A program made the translations under genes and the position numbers. A stretch of DNA of 64,000 nt from Sulfobacillus thermosulfidooxidans DSM 9293. Lineage in GTDB: Bacteria > Bacillota > Sulfobacillia > Sulfobacillales > Sulfobacillaceae. How positions within the stretch are numbered: the first letter of the stretch is position 1; each line of letters opens with the position of its first letter. The stretch lies in NCBI RefSeq assembly GCF_900176145.1, contig NZ_FWWY01000001.1:2070487-2134486 (forward strand), in the 5' to 3' direction. This document shows positions 15,261 through 25,240 of the stretch, piece by piece. The notes beneath the pieces are model-generated. The model had not been told where the DNA came from. It made no database searches and saw only the letters and a list, made by a program, of their open reading frames with translations.

Positions 15261-15282
15261 TTTGTTGTAAGGATGTGTGGTG

Positions 15283-16422
15283 ATGGTCAGCGTACTCGTG
15301 GCCGCGATTTCTCCTGTTATGGAATCGATCGATTTTATGTTGCGACAACTGTCGTTCGTTAATATCGCGGGCTCTACGGAAAGCATCCGGGAAGCAGTGG
15401 ATATTGCCAGCGTTGAACCGGTGGATGCAATGATTGTTGATGAAAGTCTCTTGAGTGACAGTTGGGGCCTTCAAGATCGTCTGGCCCGTGAGCCGTTTCC
15501 TTTGATTTTAATCATTCATACGCCGAGCGTAGAGTCTACTCGTCGGGCCCTAGCTATTCATGCGGCCGATGTGATAACGCAGGAGGCTATCCCTTCTTTG
15601 TTACCTCCGTTGTTGAAATCCTTGAATAAATCGGAAGAACATCCTATGTCTTTACATCGCATTATTGGGGTATATTCAGCCAAGGGAGGAGTCGGGAAGA
15701 CAACGTTGGCAGTCAATCTGGCTTGGAGTTTAGCGCTTTTATCTGAACGACCGACCGCGTTGGTCGACTTAGATTTACAATTTGGCGACATAGGTCCAAT
15801 GGTTCACGATAGTCCAGATGTGACGATTCGTGAACTTGTTGAAGGTTCACCAAAAGAGGTTGAGGAAGACAAGTTGTCGCGTTCACTCATAGCTGTCGAT
15901 GGATTGCCGTTAAATTTGCTATTGGCACCTTTGCATCCGCAATATGCGGACTTAGTGGAATCACATCACGTCAAGGATATACTTCAGCATCTTAAGGCAA
16001 CTCATGTTTTTACCGTGTGTGATTTATCGGCTGCCTTGTCTGATCAAAATTTGTCGGCTATGGATCTTGTCGATGTCTTAATGATGGTAGCAACGCCAGA
16101 AATGATCACTTTGCGTAACGTAGCCCGATCACTAAAAGTATTGCAAACATTATATCCAGAACAAGGTAGGATTCGCGTGGTAATCAACCGGGCAGGTACT
16201 GGTATGACATCTGATCAAATTAGTCAGGTATTACCAATTCCCGTATCTTATTGGATGCCGAGTGGAGGAGTGACACCTGTTCGGTCCGCTAACACGGGGA
16301 AACCTTTGGTCGTTGTCGATCCATCTAATCCTCTTGCAATATCCATTGAAAATATTGCGAAGACTCTACTGGAAGAATTTGAAGGCGCGAGCCGTAGAAC
16401 GGTTCGCAAAGATGTGTTGTGA
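15283..16422 (+). CDS. TadZ/CpaE-like pilus localisation ATPase
   Basis: The protein has an N-terminal receiver-like domain without a clear phosphorylation site (about 1-110), followed by a ParA/MinD-type ATPase domain with deviant Walker A KGGVGKT (about 134-140) and ADLDLQFGD-like switch sequence VDLDLQFGDIGPM. TadZ proteins place the Tad machine in the cell. The ATG at 15283 has AAGGA nine bases upstream; a GTG at 15277 is also possible. A paralogue lies at 20863-22044 in the same locus. The gene lies 22 bases after cpaB and 38 before tadA, in one operon. Confidence 0.88.
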   Translation: MVSVLVAAISPVMESIDFMLRQLSFVNIAGSTESIREAVDIASVEPVDAMIVDESLLSDSWGLQDRLAREPFPLILIIHTPSVESTRRALAIHAADVITQEAIPSLLPPLLKSLNKSEEHPMSLHRIIGVYSAKGGVGKTTLAVNLAWSLALLSERPTALVDLDLQFGDIGPMVHDSPDVTIRELVEGSPKEVEEDKLSRSLIAVDGLPLNLLLAPLHPQYADLVESHHVKDILQHLKATHVFTVCDLSAALSDQNLSAMDLVDVLMMVATPEMITLRNVARSLKVLQTLYPEQGRIRVVINRAGTGMTSDQISQVLPIPVSYWMPSGGVTPVRSANTGKPLVVVDPSNPLAISIENIAKTLLEEFEGASRRTVRKDVL

Positions 16423-20090: not shown

Positions 20091-20660
20091 TTAGGAACAT
20101 GACGAAGGTGGCAGTGTCTTTGAAAACGATCCTGATTCCGTAGCTGTGGAATTTCCCCCTTCCTGAATCATTGTGTAGTGCTGATTCATCAACACTGATG
20201 ATCCAAACCCTGGTAATTTAATTAATAAAGGATATGATGTTGATACGTTAACTTCGACGGTAGGTAAAGATGTAGAGGGAGATGGTGAGGGCGATGAAGA
20301 TGAAGATGAAGATGAAGATGAAGATGAAGATGAGGAAGAGTTAGAAGATGATGCCGGTGAAGATGAATTTGCGTTACTACTATAAAAATTTGCTGTCCAC
20401 TTTACCACGGCGTTATTGGGAAACAATCCAGAGTTGATTTGACTATAAATCGCACAGCCGATTTGTGTCGAGTTCTCGCCTAAAGATGCTGCCCGGACGC
20501 CAGCACGAGCACCTTGTTCAATGGAAATAAAGCCGCTAAAGATAAAACCCATTTGGATTATGGCAAATAGAAACAGCAGTAAGAGAGGTGCCACGAGTGC
20601 AAATTCGACAAGAGCCTGACCTTGATGATCATGGCCGATACGCTTCCACGACTTTTTCAT
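20091..20660 (-). CDS. TadE-like pseudopilin with polyserine tract
   Basis: The 189-residue protein has the TadE signature GQALVEFALVAPLLLLFLFAI, a class IVb-like N-terminal helix with a glutamate at the +5-type position, and the following EQGARAGVRAASLG. The extracytoplasmic part contains about 20 consecutive serines interrupted once, followed by SPSPSPS, then a beta-rich end. The serine run is encoded by a hexanucleotide microsatellite. The gene is on the opposite strand to the rest of the operon, converging on DUF192, with its own promoter expected in 20661-20862. It is probably a minor pilin. Confidence 0.85.
   Translation of the reverse strand: MKKSWKRIGHDHQGQALVEFALVAPLLLLFLFAIIQMGFIFSGFISIEQGARAGVRAASLGENSTQIGCAIYSQINSGLFPNNAVVKWTANFYSSNANSSSPASSSNSSSSSSSSSSSSSSSSPSPSPSTSLPTVEVNVSTSYPLLIKLPGFGSSVLMNQHYTMIQEGGNSTATESGSFSKTLPPSSCS
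20293..20334. repeat. GATGAA hexanucleotide microsatellite in tadE-like gene
   Basis: Six perfect GATGAA units (20293-20328) and one variant unit lie within the coding region and encode Ser-Ser pairs on the minus strand. Unit gain or loss would change tract length in steps of two serines without a frameshift. Confidence 0.95.
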
Positions 20661-20862: not shown

Positions 20863-22044
20863 TTGTTCACAGTGTATGTGGCAAGTCAGGAGGGACTGCG
20901 TGCCAAATTGGTAGGGGCGGTGAAGAATATTCCCGGGGCCGTACTGGATGGCAGCTCGACCGACTTGCGACAAGCACTGGATGAATGCGCTACAGAAAAT
21001 CCGGGTGTCCTACTCATCGACGATGAGCTGTTAATACAAAATGTAGGGCTTTTCGAACAAATTGCGAGCCTCCCCTATCCGATTGTTGTACTAGCTTCTC
21101 CGACGGATGCTGGAGCTGCCCGCCGTGCTTTGGCGATTAAAGCCAAAGACTTTATCAGCCTCGACAGTTGGCAGCAAGATTTAGCAGCCATTTTGTCACG
21201 GGTGGCCACGCCACTCGAAGGGGAAGTGCACCATGATGGGCGTGTTATTGTGGTGTTTTCGTCTAAAGGGGGCGTTGGCAAGACAACACTGAGTGTGAAC
21301 TTAGCTATTGCCCTCGCCAAAGCCAGTCGTCAACCTGTCGCCATCGTGGATTTGGACATTCAATTTGGGGATGTGGCGCCCATGGTCGGGGACGCGCCCC
21401 TAGTGACCTTATATGATTTGGTTAAGGGAACAACCCACATTGAAGCGGATATGGTGAAACGGGCGCTCAAACGCGTGGCCAATAATGTGTACATTTTGGC
21501 CGCACCCAATAATCCCGAAGAAGCGGACGATATTCGGGCCGATCACATTGTGCAAGTTCTGCAATTATTACGCGAAACTCATGCCTACGTGGTTGTTGAC
21601 ACCGCACCGGGTTACACCGATATTAATGTCGCGGCTTTTGATTTTTCTGATACGATTTTAACGGTTTGTACTCCGGATGTGGTAACGTTGCGCACAGTTG
21701 GACAAGCGCTTCAGGTTTTTTACGACGGGTTTCATTACGCTAAGGACAAAGTGCGGATTGTTCTCAACCGTAGCGGATCGAAAACAGGAGTCGAAACCAC
21801 CGATATTGCCCAGGTGCTCCAAAGTGCCGTCAGTTATCAATTACCCAGTGATGGCGCCTATCCCGTCCGCGCAGCCAATGAAGGACAGCCGCTCATGTTA
21901 CAGTTTCCGGAGTCGGCGTTGGCGCGAGCCATCCAAAATATTGCGAATGATATTGTTCAAGAAACGGAAGGCCGTCAACGTACAGTCGCCAAAAAACCGG
22001 GCAGACTTCCCTTCTTTTCCCGATTACTGCGAAAACCTGATTAA
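20863..22044 (+). CDS. Second TadZ/CpaE-like ATPase
   Basis: This 393-residue paralogue of 15283-16422 has the same architecture: a degenerate receiver domain (1-115, LLIDDELLIQ in place of a standard phosphoacceptor site) and a ParA/MinD-like ATPase with KGGVGKT (135-141) and VDLDIQFGDVAPM. The C-terminus is basic (KKPGRLPFFSRLLRK), possibly a membrane-binding amphipathic helix, which the first copy lacks. The TTG start follows GGGGGAT. It lies after the divergent tadE-like gene with its own upstream region, so it is expressed separately from the main operon. Confidence 0.87.
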   Translation: MFTVYVASQEGLRAKLVGAVKNIPGAVLDGSSTDLRQALDECATENPGVLLIDDELLIQNVGLFEQIASLPYPIVVLASPTDAGAARRALAIKAKDFISLDSWQQDLAAILSRVATPLEGEVHHDGRVIVVFSSKGGVGKTTLSVNLAIALAKASRQPVAIVDLDIQFGDVAPMVGDAPLVTLYDLVKGTTHIEADMVKRALKRVANNVYILAAPNNPEEADDIRADHIVQVLQLLRETHAYVVVDTAPGYTDINVAAFDFSDTILTVCTPDVVTLRTVGQALQVFYDGFHYAKDKVRIVLNRSGSKTGVETTDIAQVLQSAVSYQLPSDGAYPVRAANEGQPLMLQFPESALARAIQNIANDIVQETEGRQRTVAKKPGRLPFFSRLLRKPD

Positions 22045-22209: not shown

Positions 22210-23931
22210 ATGAGCCAAAGAGGATACTGGGGAATAGGAATTATAGCAATAATTATCGCATCCGGTGTAGGATACGCTATAGCTAAGGCGCAGGACGTGC
22301 CGCCCAAACCGACGACAAATATCGGTCCCCAGTCCTTTACCAAATATGCAATGAATTCTCGCAATAACGCGGTGTACGAAACGGCAAATGTGAAAAATTG
22401 GACGGCTAACTGGACTTTTACGGCTAAAGAACCATTGCAGCAGGCTTCTATCGCGAATGGCATTGTCTATATTTCAGGAGACGGCGGTAATTTGGCCTAT
22501 CGCCATAACGATTTAATTTATGCGGTGGATGCCCAAACCGGGCAAAAATTATGGACGACTCAGCTTAATAATATGTCGATGACGACGCCCGTTGTCGCTC
22601 ATGGTATGGTGTTCGTAGGCAGTGGCACGCAAGGATTTAATCCCAAGGAGCAAGCCCTTGTCAATCATTTGCATACGCGTCATATTATTCGCGGAACCGG
22701 GCCTAATGCCATTTATGCCCTTAACAGCCTAACAGGCCAGGTAATCTGGAAATATAACACGCCGGGAGAAAATATGCCCACGTTTGTTTACCACCAAGGC
22801 ACTCTTTATGTCGCCAATGGAAATGGCAAGGTCTATGCCTTTAACGCCAAGTCCGGCACCTTGTTATGGACGGTGAATATTGGATCATATGTCAGTATGT
22901 CTTCTCCGGTGCTAGATGGGCATTTTCTCTATATCTCTGGGGCTCATCCCTATGCCTTGTATGCGGTCAATATCCAAACGCACCGGATTCAATGGAAAAC
23001 ACCTGTGCCAGCAGTCTTTGCTGGATCGGATGACTGTTCTTTGGCCCTGTGGCATCACCGGCTCTTTTTAGAGGGGACGGCGGGCACGTGGCACCACCCG
23101 CGTTCGGTATTATTTGCTTTTGACAGTCAAGATGGGCGCTTACTGTGGAAAAGGCGTTTAGGTGGGGGATTGTTGCCCACCAACATTGAAGTTTCGGCTC
23201 CCGTGATGGATCATGGTACGGTTTTTATTGGCTCGCCGATTACCCATAAAGAATATGCATTTAATGCCCGAACCGGTCATCTGGATTGGTCGTTTAAGGC
23301 CGCAGCCCCCATTGCCGAATCACCTGCCATCTTTGATCATCACCTCTTTGTGGGAGATACGATGGGAATGTTCTATGTTTTAAATAGTACAACTGGCAAG
23401 GAAATTGCCGCGCGCTATCTAGCTGGAGCTTTTGCTGCCGACTATCCCTTAATTGTCGGAAAAACCCTGTATCAACCGAATCAAAATGGGCAAATGTTAG
23501 CGATACCCTTAACCACCTTGATGGACTCTAACAAAAATGCTTTCGTCAGTTTAGCTGTACCTTCCGGCGCGTTGGGAGCTGATATATTGCAAGGAGAAAA
23601 AATTTTTATGAGCCCCGCGTTGTCATCCCGGGGTCTAACTTGCAACTCCTGTCATGTGGATCAAGGCACGACCACGACGTATGCTAGGGGGCACATTATT
23701 CCGACACTGATTGGCGCCGCTTCGGCATTTCCTCTCGTAAGAAATGGTCACGTGAGAACGTTAGATGGACAAATTAATCATTGCATCGCTGCAATGGGGG
23801 GAAACCGATTATCCTCGTCAAGCCGGACAATGAAGTATTTAAATTTGTATTTGCATTGGCTATCTAGTGGGTTTTCTGACCATCTTACACCCAGCGCCGC
23901 ACACCAAACGATTACGGGAGGCTGCAATTAA
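22210..23931 (+). CDS. PQQ-like beta-propeller fused to SoxA/TsdA-like cytochrome c domain
   Basis: The 573-residue exported protein has an N-terminal membrane or signal segment (about 5-26). A beta-propeller follows with at least seven blade signatures, such as AVDAQTGQKLW, ALNSLTGQVIW, AFNAKSGTLLW, AFDSQDGRLLW and AFNARTGHLDW. The C-terminal c-type haem domain has C478-N-S-C-H482. Its end, GHVRTLDGQINHCIAAMGG and then LHWLSSG, resembles the SoxA/thiosulfate dehydrogenase type (IN-x-C motif, C525). Tetrathionate hydrolases of acidophiles are PQQ-like propellers, so an oxidoreductase of sulfur compounds is plausible; a quinoprotein dehydrogenase is the alternative. The next gene is a small cytochrome c overlapping by one base, likely its electron acceptor. 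Confidence 0.8.
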   Translation: MSQRGYWGIGIIAIIIASGVGYAIAKAQDVPPKPTTNIGPQSFTKYAMNSRNNAVYETANVKNWTANWTFTAKEPLQQASIANGIVYISGDGGNLAYRHNDLIYAVDAQTGQKLWTTQLNNMSMTTPVVAHGMVFVGSGTQGFNPKEQALVNHLHTRHIIRGTGPNAIYALNSLTGQVIWKYNTPGENMPTFVYHQGTLYVANGNGKVYAFNAKSGTLLWTVNIGSYVSMSSPVLDGHFLYISGAHPYALYAVNIQTHRIQWKTPVPAVFAGSDDCSLALWHHRLFLEGTAGTWHHPRSVLFAFDSQDGRLLWKRRLGGGLLPTNIEVSAPVMDHGTVFIGSPITHKEYAFNARTGHLDWSFKAAAPIAESPAIFDHHLFVGDTMGMFYVLNSTTGKEIAARYLAGAFAADYPLIVGKTLYQPNQNGQMLAIPLTTLMDSNKNAFVSLAVPSGALGADILQGEKIFMSPALSSRGLTCNSCHVDQGTTTTYARGHIIPTLIGAASAFPLVRNGHVRTLDGQINHCIAAMGGNRLSSSSRTMKYLNLYLHWLSSGFSDHLTPSAAHQTITGGCN

Positions 23932-24287
23932 TGAACATCACGCAAAAAATAACGGCTTTAGCCTTTGCGGCACTGATGGTGGGGATAGGGAGCTATATGC
24001 TGACCACACGAGATCTGGTCATCAAAGCGCAGCAAGTGAGTCAAGAGCAGGCGGGCAGAGTGCTGTTTGCGAATTTATGCGCAACATGCCATGGTCCGGG
24101 TGGAGATGGATCAGGAGGAGCGCCTAATTTGAGCGACGGGCGTGTCTTACAAAAATATCCGACATCACAAGCCTTAGGCACGTTTATTCAACAACGCATG
24201 CCCGCAAGTGCCCCGGGGACTTTGAATCCTGACGAAACGCGCGATTTAGTATTATATATTCAAAGGTTAAACCGTGGCCCATCATAA
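23931..24287 (+). CDS. Membrane-anchored small cytochrome c
   Basis: The 118-residue protein has an N-terminal membrane helix (about 7-24) and a single class I cytochrome c domain: C50-A-T-C53-H54 binds haem, and M90 (QQRMPAS) is the probable sixth ligand. GPGGDGSGGAPNLSDGR follows the haem motif, as in short-chain cytochromes. The ATG overlaps the stop of the propeller-cytochrome gene by one base, so the two are translationally coupled. Electrons probably pass from the propeller protein through this cytochrome to a terminal oxidase. The active side is extracytoplasmic. Confidence 0.92.
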   Translation: MNITQKITALAFAALMVGIGSYMLTTRDLVIKAQQVSQEQAGRVLFANLCATCHGPGGDGSGGAPNLSDGRVLQKYPTSQALGTFIQQRMPASAPGTLNPDETRDLVLYIQRLNRGPS

Positions 24288-24358: not shown

Positions 24359-25240
24359 TTGTTAAGGTATGTCCGTGCCTCATTAGAGGATCAGGCGAAG
24401 GTTGAAGAGTTTTTACGGAGTATTCAAGATGAGGGTTTACTGAAGGAAGTGAGTACACTTCTCAGTCTCACGCAAGGTGGTTTGTATTTAGCAATTGATG
24501 ATCATGATGCAATTGTCGGGACAGCAGTCATTACGTTGCCGAAAAGGCACGAGGCATATCTTGGTCATGTCAGACTGGCATCCCCCAATCAGGATCGGGA
24601 GACATTAAAAGACTTTGCATCCTTCCAACTCGAAGAAGCGCGAAAATTGGGTGCTCATGTCGTACGGGCGCTGGCCAGTGAAAACGACCAATTGTGGGCT
24701 ACTGTCTTGCAGGAGGAATCCGAGTTTAAACCGGTGGAAAAATGGGTCGTGGGAACCTTTGAAGGATTTCAAGCTCCTGATGTTCCTCCCCTCGAAGCGG
24801 GACCAGCCTGGGCGGTGGATAAAGAACGTATTCGAGAATTTATGGATCAAGTGACGAATCCCCTATGGGCCGAGAATGATCTACATATTCCGAGTTCCCT
24901 TGAACCGCAAGATTTAGAGAATCAATTTGAAGTGGGCGGCGTTGCGGTGGCCCCTCAAGATGGACGGTTGACGGTGGACTCTTTAGCGCTCTACCGGGTG
25001 CGCAACACGGATGCGATTGATATTAAATATTTTCGGAGCCATGGCCATTATATTCGTCAACTTCTTGATTATTTGTGGCTGGAAGCCCGTGCCTGGGGCG
25101 TTTCTAAAATGCGCTTTGGGTTGAATGAACAAACAGCATCCCAAATTGCTGATACATTACAAATTCCCATTCAGGTGGAATGGGCGGGGAGTATTTTGGT
25201 CCATTATATTAATCATGGACTGCAAGCGGCATCTGTATGA
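24359..25240 (+). CDS. GNAT-family acetyltransferase-like protein
   Basis: The 293-residue protein appears to contain two GNAT-like halves. The N-terminal half (about 1-135) has a recognisable fold: ALIDDHDAIVG-like strand (YLAIDDHDAIVGTAVITLP) and YLGHVRLASPNQDRETLKDF in the acetyl-CoA-binding region. The C-terminal half (about 165-290) is more divergent. The acetyl-CoA loop Q/RxxGxG/A is not clearly conserved, so activity is uncertain. The TTG start has a good ribosome site. The stop overlaps the start of the PIG-V-like gene by four bases, tying it to glycan synthesis. Confidence 0.65.
   Translation: MLRYVRASLEDQAKVEEFLRSIQDEGLLKEVSTLLSLTQGGLYLAIDDHDAIVGTAVITLPKRHEAYLGHVRLASPNQDRETLKDFASFQLEEARKLGAHVVRALASENDQLWATVLQEESEFKPVEKWVVGTFEGFQAPDVPPLEAGPAWAVDKERIREFMDQVTNPLWAENDLHIPSSLEPQDLENQFEVGGVAVAPQDGRLTVDSLALYRVRNTDAIDIKYFRSHGHYIRQLLDYLWLEARAWGVSKMRFGLNEQTASQIADTLQIPIQVEWAGSILVHYINHGLQAASV

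Follow-up and report, generated by a model that had tools for sequence, protein, structure and literature searches.

The systems closest to the locus described here are tetrathionate hydrolase (TetH, or TTH), the thiosulfate dehydrogenase TsdA, and the Sox system. TetH has an eight-bladed fold (PMC10859504) with a pocket lined by three Met residues (PMC11818568), while TsdA and SoxA have in common an Arg with a role in substrate interaction (PMC4423706). The SoxAX-SoxY-SoxB pathway yields 2 electrons per thiosulfate without SoxCD (PMC5336275), and the GGCGG tail of SoxY carries sulfur on its Cys (PMC6067878, PMC5336275). DsrC likewise carries sulfur on a penultimate Cys (PMC3397948), and in the acidophile Metallosphaera, tetrathionate converts protein Cys to a Cys-S-thiosulfonate (PMC4175335). 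A comparative genomic study of Sulfobacillus described TetH homologues from uncharacterized families, without SoxA, TsdA, or PQQ terms (PMC4378227), and in another study Sb. thermosulfidooxidans was listed with three tth genes and without sox genes (PMC5023260). Cytochrome goes unmentioned in a 2024 review of TetH (PMC10859504), and the enzyme of a 2025 TTH paper has no cytochrome domain (PMC11818568). A full-text search of the open-licence literature returned nothing relevant to a TetH-heme fusion, nor did the open-licence literature searched contain an enzyme that by itself couples the hydrolysis of tetrathionate to electron transport.

The window analyzed here is a 64,000-nucleotide stretch of the 3.86-Mb genome of Sulfobacillus thermosulfidooxidans DSM 9293. 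A sequence-only reading had placed at 22210-24287 a PQQ-like propeller of at least seven blades fused to a SoxA/TsdA-like heme domain and followed by a cytochrome c. These coordinates are right, and they hold two ORFs of 573 and 118 aa in which the stop codon of the fusion and the start codon of the cytochrome gene overlap as TAATG (Table 1). Because of this overlap, and because the GGAGG ribosome site of the cytochrome gene sits within the final Gly codons of the preceding gene, the nucleotide sequence suggests that translation of the cytochrome c is probably coupled to that of the fusion. A Pfam scan identified the downstream protein as a c-type cytochrome with a CATCH motif, and it is the likely electron acceptor of the fusion. 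Since c-type heme requires an extracytoplasmic location, we infer that the fusion protein is extracytoplasmic.

Table 1. Features of the fusion gene and the adjacent cytochrome c gene (positions in the window)
Feature	Position	Strand	Basis or remark
Fusion protein ORF	22210..23931 (stop included)	+	573 aa
N-terminal hydrophobic helix (residues 4-25), signal or membrane anchor	22219..22284	+	Sequence; AF2 helix 4-25
TetH-like beta-propeller (about residues 60-440)	22387..23529	+	Pfam, PDB sequence match, AF2 fold
Met124, first pocket Met	22579..22581	+	Aligned to TetH Met; invariant in 14 fusions
Met189, pocket Met	22774-22776	+	Aligned to TetH Met; invariant in 14 fusions
Met230, pocket Met	22897-22899	+	Aligned to TetH Met; invariant in 14 fusions
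Asp275, equivalent of TetH catalytic Asp325	23032..23034	+	Alignment; invariant in 14 fusions
SoxA/TsdA-type single-heme domain (about residues 450-555)	23557..23874	+	Pfam, PDB, profile, Foldseek
CNSCH heme-binding motif (residues 478-482)	23641..23655	+	Cys/Cys/His invariant in 14 fusions
Gln521, replaces Arg invariant in TsdA/SoxA	23770..23772	+	Alignment
Cys525, distal heme ligand, equivalent of AvTsdA Cys96	23782..23784	+	Alignment; invariant in fusions
Variable, disordered linker (residues 556-569)	23875..23916	+	Identity 0.195; pLDDT 20-40
C-terminal Gly-Gly-Cys (Cys572), proposed carrier/swinging-arm Cys	23917..23925	+	Gly571-Cys572 invariant in 14 fusions
One-heme cytochrome c ORF	23931..24287	+	118 aa, anchored
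CATCH heme motif of cytochrome c	24078..24092	+	Sequence

The propeller matches PQQ_2 in Pfam (E 1.9e-39), and its best PDB match is the tetrathionate hydrolase of Acidithiobacillus ferrooxidans (AfTTH; 6l8a, E 4.8e-43), followed by BamB (1e-14) and PQQ alcohol dehydrogenase (1.5e-8). The same structure was the top Foldseek match (E 1.9e-35, TM(target) 0.77) of an AF2 model of the fusion (mean pLDDT 67), and the eight-bladed TetH fold fits the seven or more blades originally counted. Asp275 occupies the TetH position that is Asn in the inactive mutant 7cqy. Together with the three pocket Met residues, it is present in 14 of the 14 distinct fusions on which all residue comparisons are based, as well as in most paralogues. 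The identity of the propeller as TetH-like is well supported. With AfTTH (6l8a/7cqy) the fusion shares the propeller fold, the catalytic Asp, the three pocket Met residues, and an acidophile host, but the propellers are only about 30% identical, and TTH has no heme domain, terminal Cys arm, or cytochrome partner, whereas the fusion has all three. In a tree with AfTTH and L052, a canonical TetH from the same Sulfobacillus genome that is 56% identical to AfTTH over the compared part, fusion propellers (mean pairwise identity, 0.57) group in a separate clade (support, 0.99) outside the characterized TTH clade. The genome holds ten further TetH-like propeller matches (G000:C1, L002-L008, L049-L057), L052 among them, an unusual expansion of the fold; most keep the catalytic Asp or Glu and the pocket Met residues, and some have a stop inside the match.

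Might the protein instead be a PQQ-dependent alcohol dehydrogenase with a cytochrome tail? The propeller does show weak matches to PF01011 (Pfam; 44.8 bits) and TIGR03075 (NCBIfam; 56 bits against a cutoff of 480). The TetH match is far stronger, however, with an E value better than those of quinoproteins by >30 orders of magnitude, and the vicinal Cys pair is missing, so we rejected this reading as extremely improbable. The sequence-only reading had itself named alcohol dehydrogenase as the competing case, and neither end of the protein points that way, the propeller being TetH-like and the heme domain of the SoxA/TsdA type rather than akin to PQQ-alcohol-dehydrogenase cytochromes.

Residues 436 to 573, scanned alone, match PF21342 (SoxA-TsdA) at 28.6 bits, above the cutoff of 27 bits, and PF21342 has no second match in the genome. 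Its nearest solved relative is TsdA (4wq7, E 4e-7 with the single sequence), and a profile search returned TsdA at 1e-12 and SoxA at 6e-9. The SoxA model TIGR04484 gave 46.8 to 62.3 bits, under its equivalog cutoff of 110 bits. Confidence in the heme domain was only moderate to low in both AF2 models (mean pLDDT of 57 for the domain alone, which is low); used as a Foldseek query, the domain model had TsdA or TsdBA as its best nine matches, with SoxAX next. The CNSCH heme site is where it had been read, and TLDGQINHC, which had been likened to the end of SoxA/TsdA domains, aligns with the distal heme ligand Cys96 of TsdA from Allochromatium vinosum (AvTsdA). The assignment to the SoxA/TsdA type is well supported.

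Within this domain (mean pairwise identity among fusions, 0.52), one substitution sets the fusions apart. The Arg to which a substrate role is assigned in TsdA (R92 in the mature protein, R119 in the precursor) is absent from every fusion, with Gln at its position in 13 of 14 and Glu in 1 of 14. It is kept in all eight aligned TsdA/SoxA references, including the two-heme TsdA-like proteins L044, L042, and L094 of the same phylum. Because this replacement occurs in every fusion, the heme site, as judged by alignment, cannot bind thiosulfate in the known way, which argues against simple TsdA or SoxA chemistry. The position of the TsdA-specific Ser100 is variable (Ala, Gly, Ser, or His), and the fusions have one residue fewer than TsdA in the loop following Cys525, matching aligned SoxA; that side of the pocket has been linked to the SoxY arm (PMC4423706). 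L044 (6853-7647, G006) comes from a genome that also encodes a fusion. The closest nonfusion relative of the heme domain is a free-standing one-heme SoxA/TsdA-like lipoprotein from another family (L043:8248-8832, G017) with His at the Arg position, and neither a cytochrome nor a propeller gene was found nearby.

These residues bear on the possibility of a bifunctional enzyme, in which the heme domain would oxidize two thiosulfates to tetrathionate and the propeller, receiving it by diffusion or channeling, would hydrolyze it to thiosulfate, sulfur, and sulfate; Cys572 would then be no carrier. Such a chain would unite both halves of the S4-intermediate pathway, the TetH Asp and the Cys-ligated heme are kept, and TsdA is the closest solved relative of the heme domain. 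Like TsdA (4wq7/4v2k) and TsdBA (5lo9), the fusion has the heme fold, CxxCH, a distal Cys ligand, and a paired one-heme cytochrome domain; TsdA carries its two heme domains in one chain, whereas at all loci the second heme of the fusion lies in the adjacent gene, whose product resembles the second heme domain of L044. However, the fusion differs from TsdA in the change of Arg to Gln, the loss of Ser, the attached TetH propeller, and the terminal Cys. The Arg and Ser that bind thiosulfate in TsdA (PMC4423706) are not conserved, a diffusible tetrathionate leaves the invariant Cys unexplained, and the genome already has a DoxD-type TQO component as well as canonical TetH (L052). We therefore consider this explanation rather unlikely.

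The C terminus was overlooked in the sequence-only reading. All fusions end in Gly-Cys plus zero or one residue (GGCN, GGCK, GGCQ, GGC, or AGC), and exactly four Cys residues are invariant among them: the CxxCH pair, Cys525, and Cys572. The tail, disordered in the AF2 prediction, follows a 14-residue linker that differs in length and sequence between fusions and has a mean pairwise identity of only 0.195 (19.5%), compared with the values above for the heme domain and propeller. Among the compared sequences, no such tail occurs in heme-less TetH paralogues or in L043, the free domain. Since the two Gly codons double as the Shine-Dalgarno sequence of the cytochrome gene, conservation of Gly is confounded, and the Gly-Gly of GGC may be kept partly for that role. 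The same cannot be said of the Cys, because its codon alternates between TGC (11) and TGT (5) across 16 loci while the residue is invariant; it is also kept where the Shine-Dalgarno sequence differs, and we rejected an artefact of this kind.

The terminal Cys might also form a structural disulfide, such as one across a dimer, with the heme domain acting as a tetrathionate reductase or as a mere electron-transfer or regulatory module beside an ordinary TetH. TsdA enzymes can work in reverse (PMC5146829, PMC6879331), AfTTH is dimeric (PMC10859504), and SoxY forms disulfide dimers (PMC5336275). Nevertheless, the strict conservation of Cys525 and CxxCH, the variability of the linker in length and sequence, and the lack of any Cys beyond the heme pair in the cytochrome c partner at most loci all speak against this arrangement, which seems to us quite improbable.

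Intact, full-length fusions were found in 15 of 42 genomes of the order, spanning eight genera and two families, including Sulfobacillus, and the cytochrome c gene directly follows the fusion in all 14 distinct loci. Its apparent absence at L086 and L088-L092 was rejected as an artefact of ORF listing, the gene being present in each once all frames were read. Every distinct homologue examined combines both folds in one polypeptide next to a cytochrome c, as had been proposed from the window, and such recurrence of architecture and gene order goes far beyond chance. This gene pair arose a single time and is conserved order-wide. In a 398-genome sample of the phylum, the same heme domain occurred only in fusions of this family, with TsdA-like proteins elsewhere, and a plasmid collection searched with the whole fusion returned propellers only and no fusion outside the order. 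The core domain readings made from the window stand, while the Gly-Cys tail, the Arg loss, and the single origin of an order-wide module had been missed.

Propeller-only duplicates in genus g57 (L073-L078) form long branches, and because they nest inside the fusion clade, they indicate secondary loss of the heme domain and Cys tail after duplication. At L093:5309-6996 (G085), the fusion gene is split into two ORFs and the downstream cytochrome c is intact. Genes downstream of the cytochrome c are syntenic in most loci (a 293-aa protein at 24359, a membrane protein at 25237, a family 2 glycosyltransferase, and GtrA) and look unrelated to sulfur. Just upstream of the fusion is an apparent Tad pilus cluster flanked by two similar ParA/CpaE-like ATPases (15277-16422 and 20863-22044), and a predicted membrane-anchored protein, a candidate TadE-type pseudopilin with a long Ser and then Ser-Pro run, lies at 20091-20660.

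As had been suggested from the window, the fusion is most likely a sulfur-compound oxidoreductase. Our tentative proposal, in which we place somewhat less than even confidence, is a membrane-anchored extracytoplasmic enzyme with Cys572 as carrier between the heme domain and the propeller; its substrate, its direction, and the carrier role of Cys572 are as we infer them. The TetH-type propeller would hydrolyze S-SO3 bonds, the SoxA/TsdA-type domain with its Cys-ligated heme would make S-S bonds by oxidation, and electrons would pass from the heme domain to the adjacent cytochrome c. Cys572, held on a flexible linker, would move a sulfur intermediate from site to site, much as SoxY uses its Cys to connect SoxAX with SoxB. 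At the heme domain, Cys572-S(n)-H and thiosulfate would give Cys572-S(n)-S-SO3(-) + 2e-, which at the propeller would react with H2O to give Cys572-S(n+1)(-) and sulfate, so that thiosulfate would be converted overall to bound or zero-valent sulfur, sulfate, and 2e-. Direct loading of Cys572 by tetrathionate would also be possible.

This carrier model is supported by the invariance of Cys572 despite the divergent linker and alternating codons, by the SoxA-like loop length after Cys525 and failure to keep the TsdA-specific Ser, by the cytochrome c adjacent to every distinct fusion, by the precedents of SoxY, DsrC, and the Metallosphaera proteins, and by the occurrence of a single PF21342 domain in a species described as lacking sox genes (PMC5023260). 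Most weighty against it is the loss of the Arg, although this tells just as much against a plain TsdA enzyme. To our knowledge, moreover, TetH acts on small soluble tetrathionate and not on protein conjugates, which also counts against the model. Alternatively, a tetrathionate hydrolase might oxidize its own product, with disulfane monosulfonate caught by Cys572 or Cys525 and oxidized at the heme, avoiding sulfur deposition. In its favor, tetrathionate has the greater stability under acidic conditions (PMC4378227), disulfane monosulfonate is what TetH chemistry yields (PMC10859504), the absence of the thiosulfate-binding Arg suggests another substrate for the heme, and the terminal Cys would be accounted for. 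However, this explanation is purely inferential, and since we know of no enzyme that oxidizes disulfane monosulfonate at a SoxA-type heme, we regard it as unlikely.

A carrier function for Cys572 invites comparison with the Sox system. Both have a SoxA-type domain with a Cys ligand, a one-heme partner, and the same loop length after the distal Cys, and with a Gly-Cys tail that is carrier-like as in SoxY and a hydrolase for S-SO3, all three functions are represented. The module is nonetheless one chain plus one cytochrome, unlike the multiprotein SoxAX/SoxY/SoxB; its hydrolase is a TetH propeller where Sox uses the metallophosphatase SoxB, it lacks the SoxA Arg, and its tail is GC(K/N/Q) or GC instead of GGCGG. 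DsrC and LbpA, each with a Cys close to the C terminus that is a known or presumed sulfur carrier (PMC3397948, PMC6067878), resemble the proposed Cys572 but are separate cytoplasmic proteins, whereas the Cys tail of the fusion is joined to the enzyme. A SoxY search (PF13501) matched none of the 42 genomes and gave no true positive in any control genome. A SoxB-like metallophosphatase lies a few kilobases from a TetH-like paralogue (L102:5073-6608; G000:C1 about 3254084-3255403); we set it aside, as it reached 293 of 550 bits, below the cutoff, and has no clear signal peptide. It is possible, if doubtful, that the fusion is by itself a complete Sox-like machine, whose SoxA-type domain would load thiosulfate onto the protein's own Cys arm and whose TetH propeller would hydrolyze the conjugate in place of SoxB. 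If so, a carrier-bound thiosulfate pathway would have been invented independently in acidophilic Gram-positive bacteria without sox genes.

Sulfobacillus and its relatives drive metal-sulfide leaching and acid mine drainage. The fusion is built from known domains, and there is a real chance that its mechanism is new. It offers a one-protein system in which to study how sulfur is handed over between sites, a question common to TetH and Sox. Such a conserved union of hydrolase, Cys-ligated heme oxidase, and carrier-like Cys, paired with a cytochrome c, would close a gap in Sb. thermosulfidooxidans, which has been described as lacking sox genes, and, if the proposal is true, would represent a new all-in-one route to energy from sulfur compounds.
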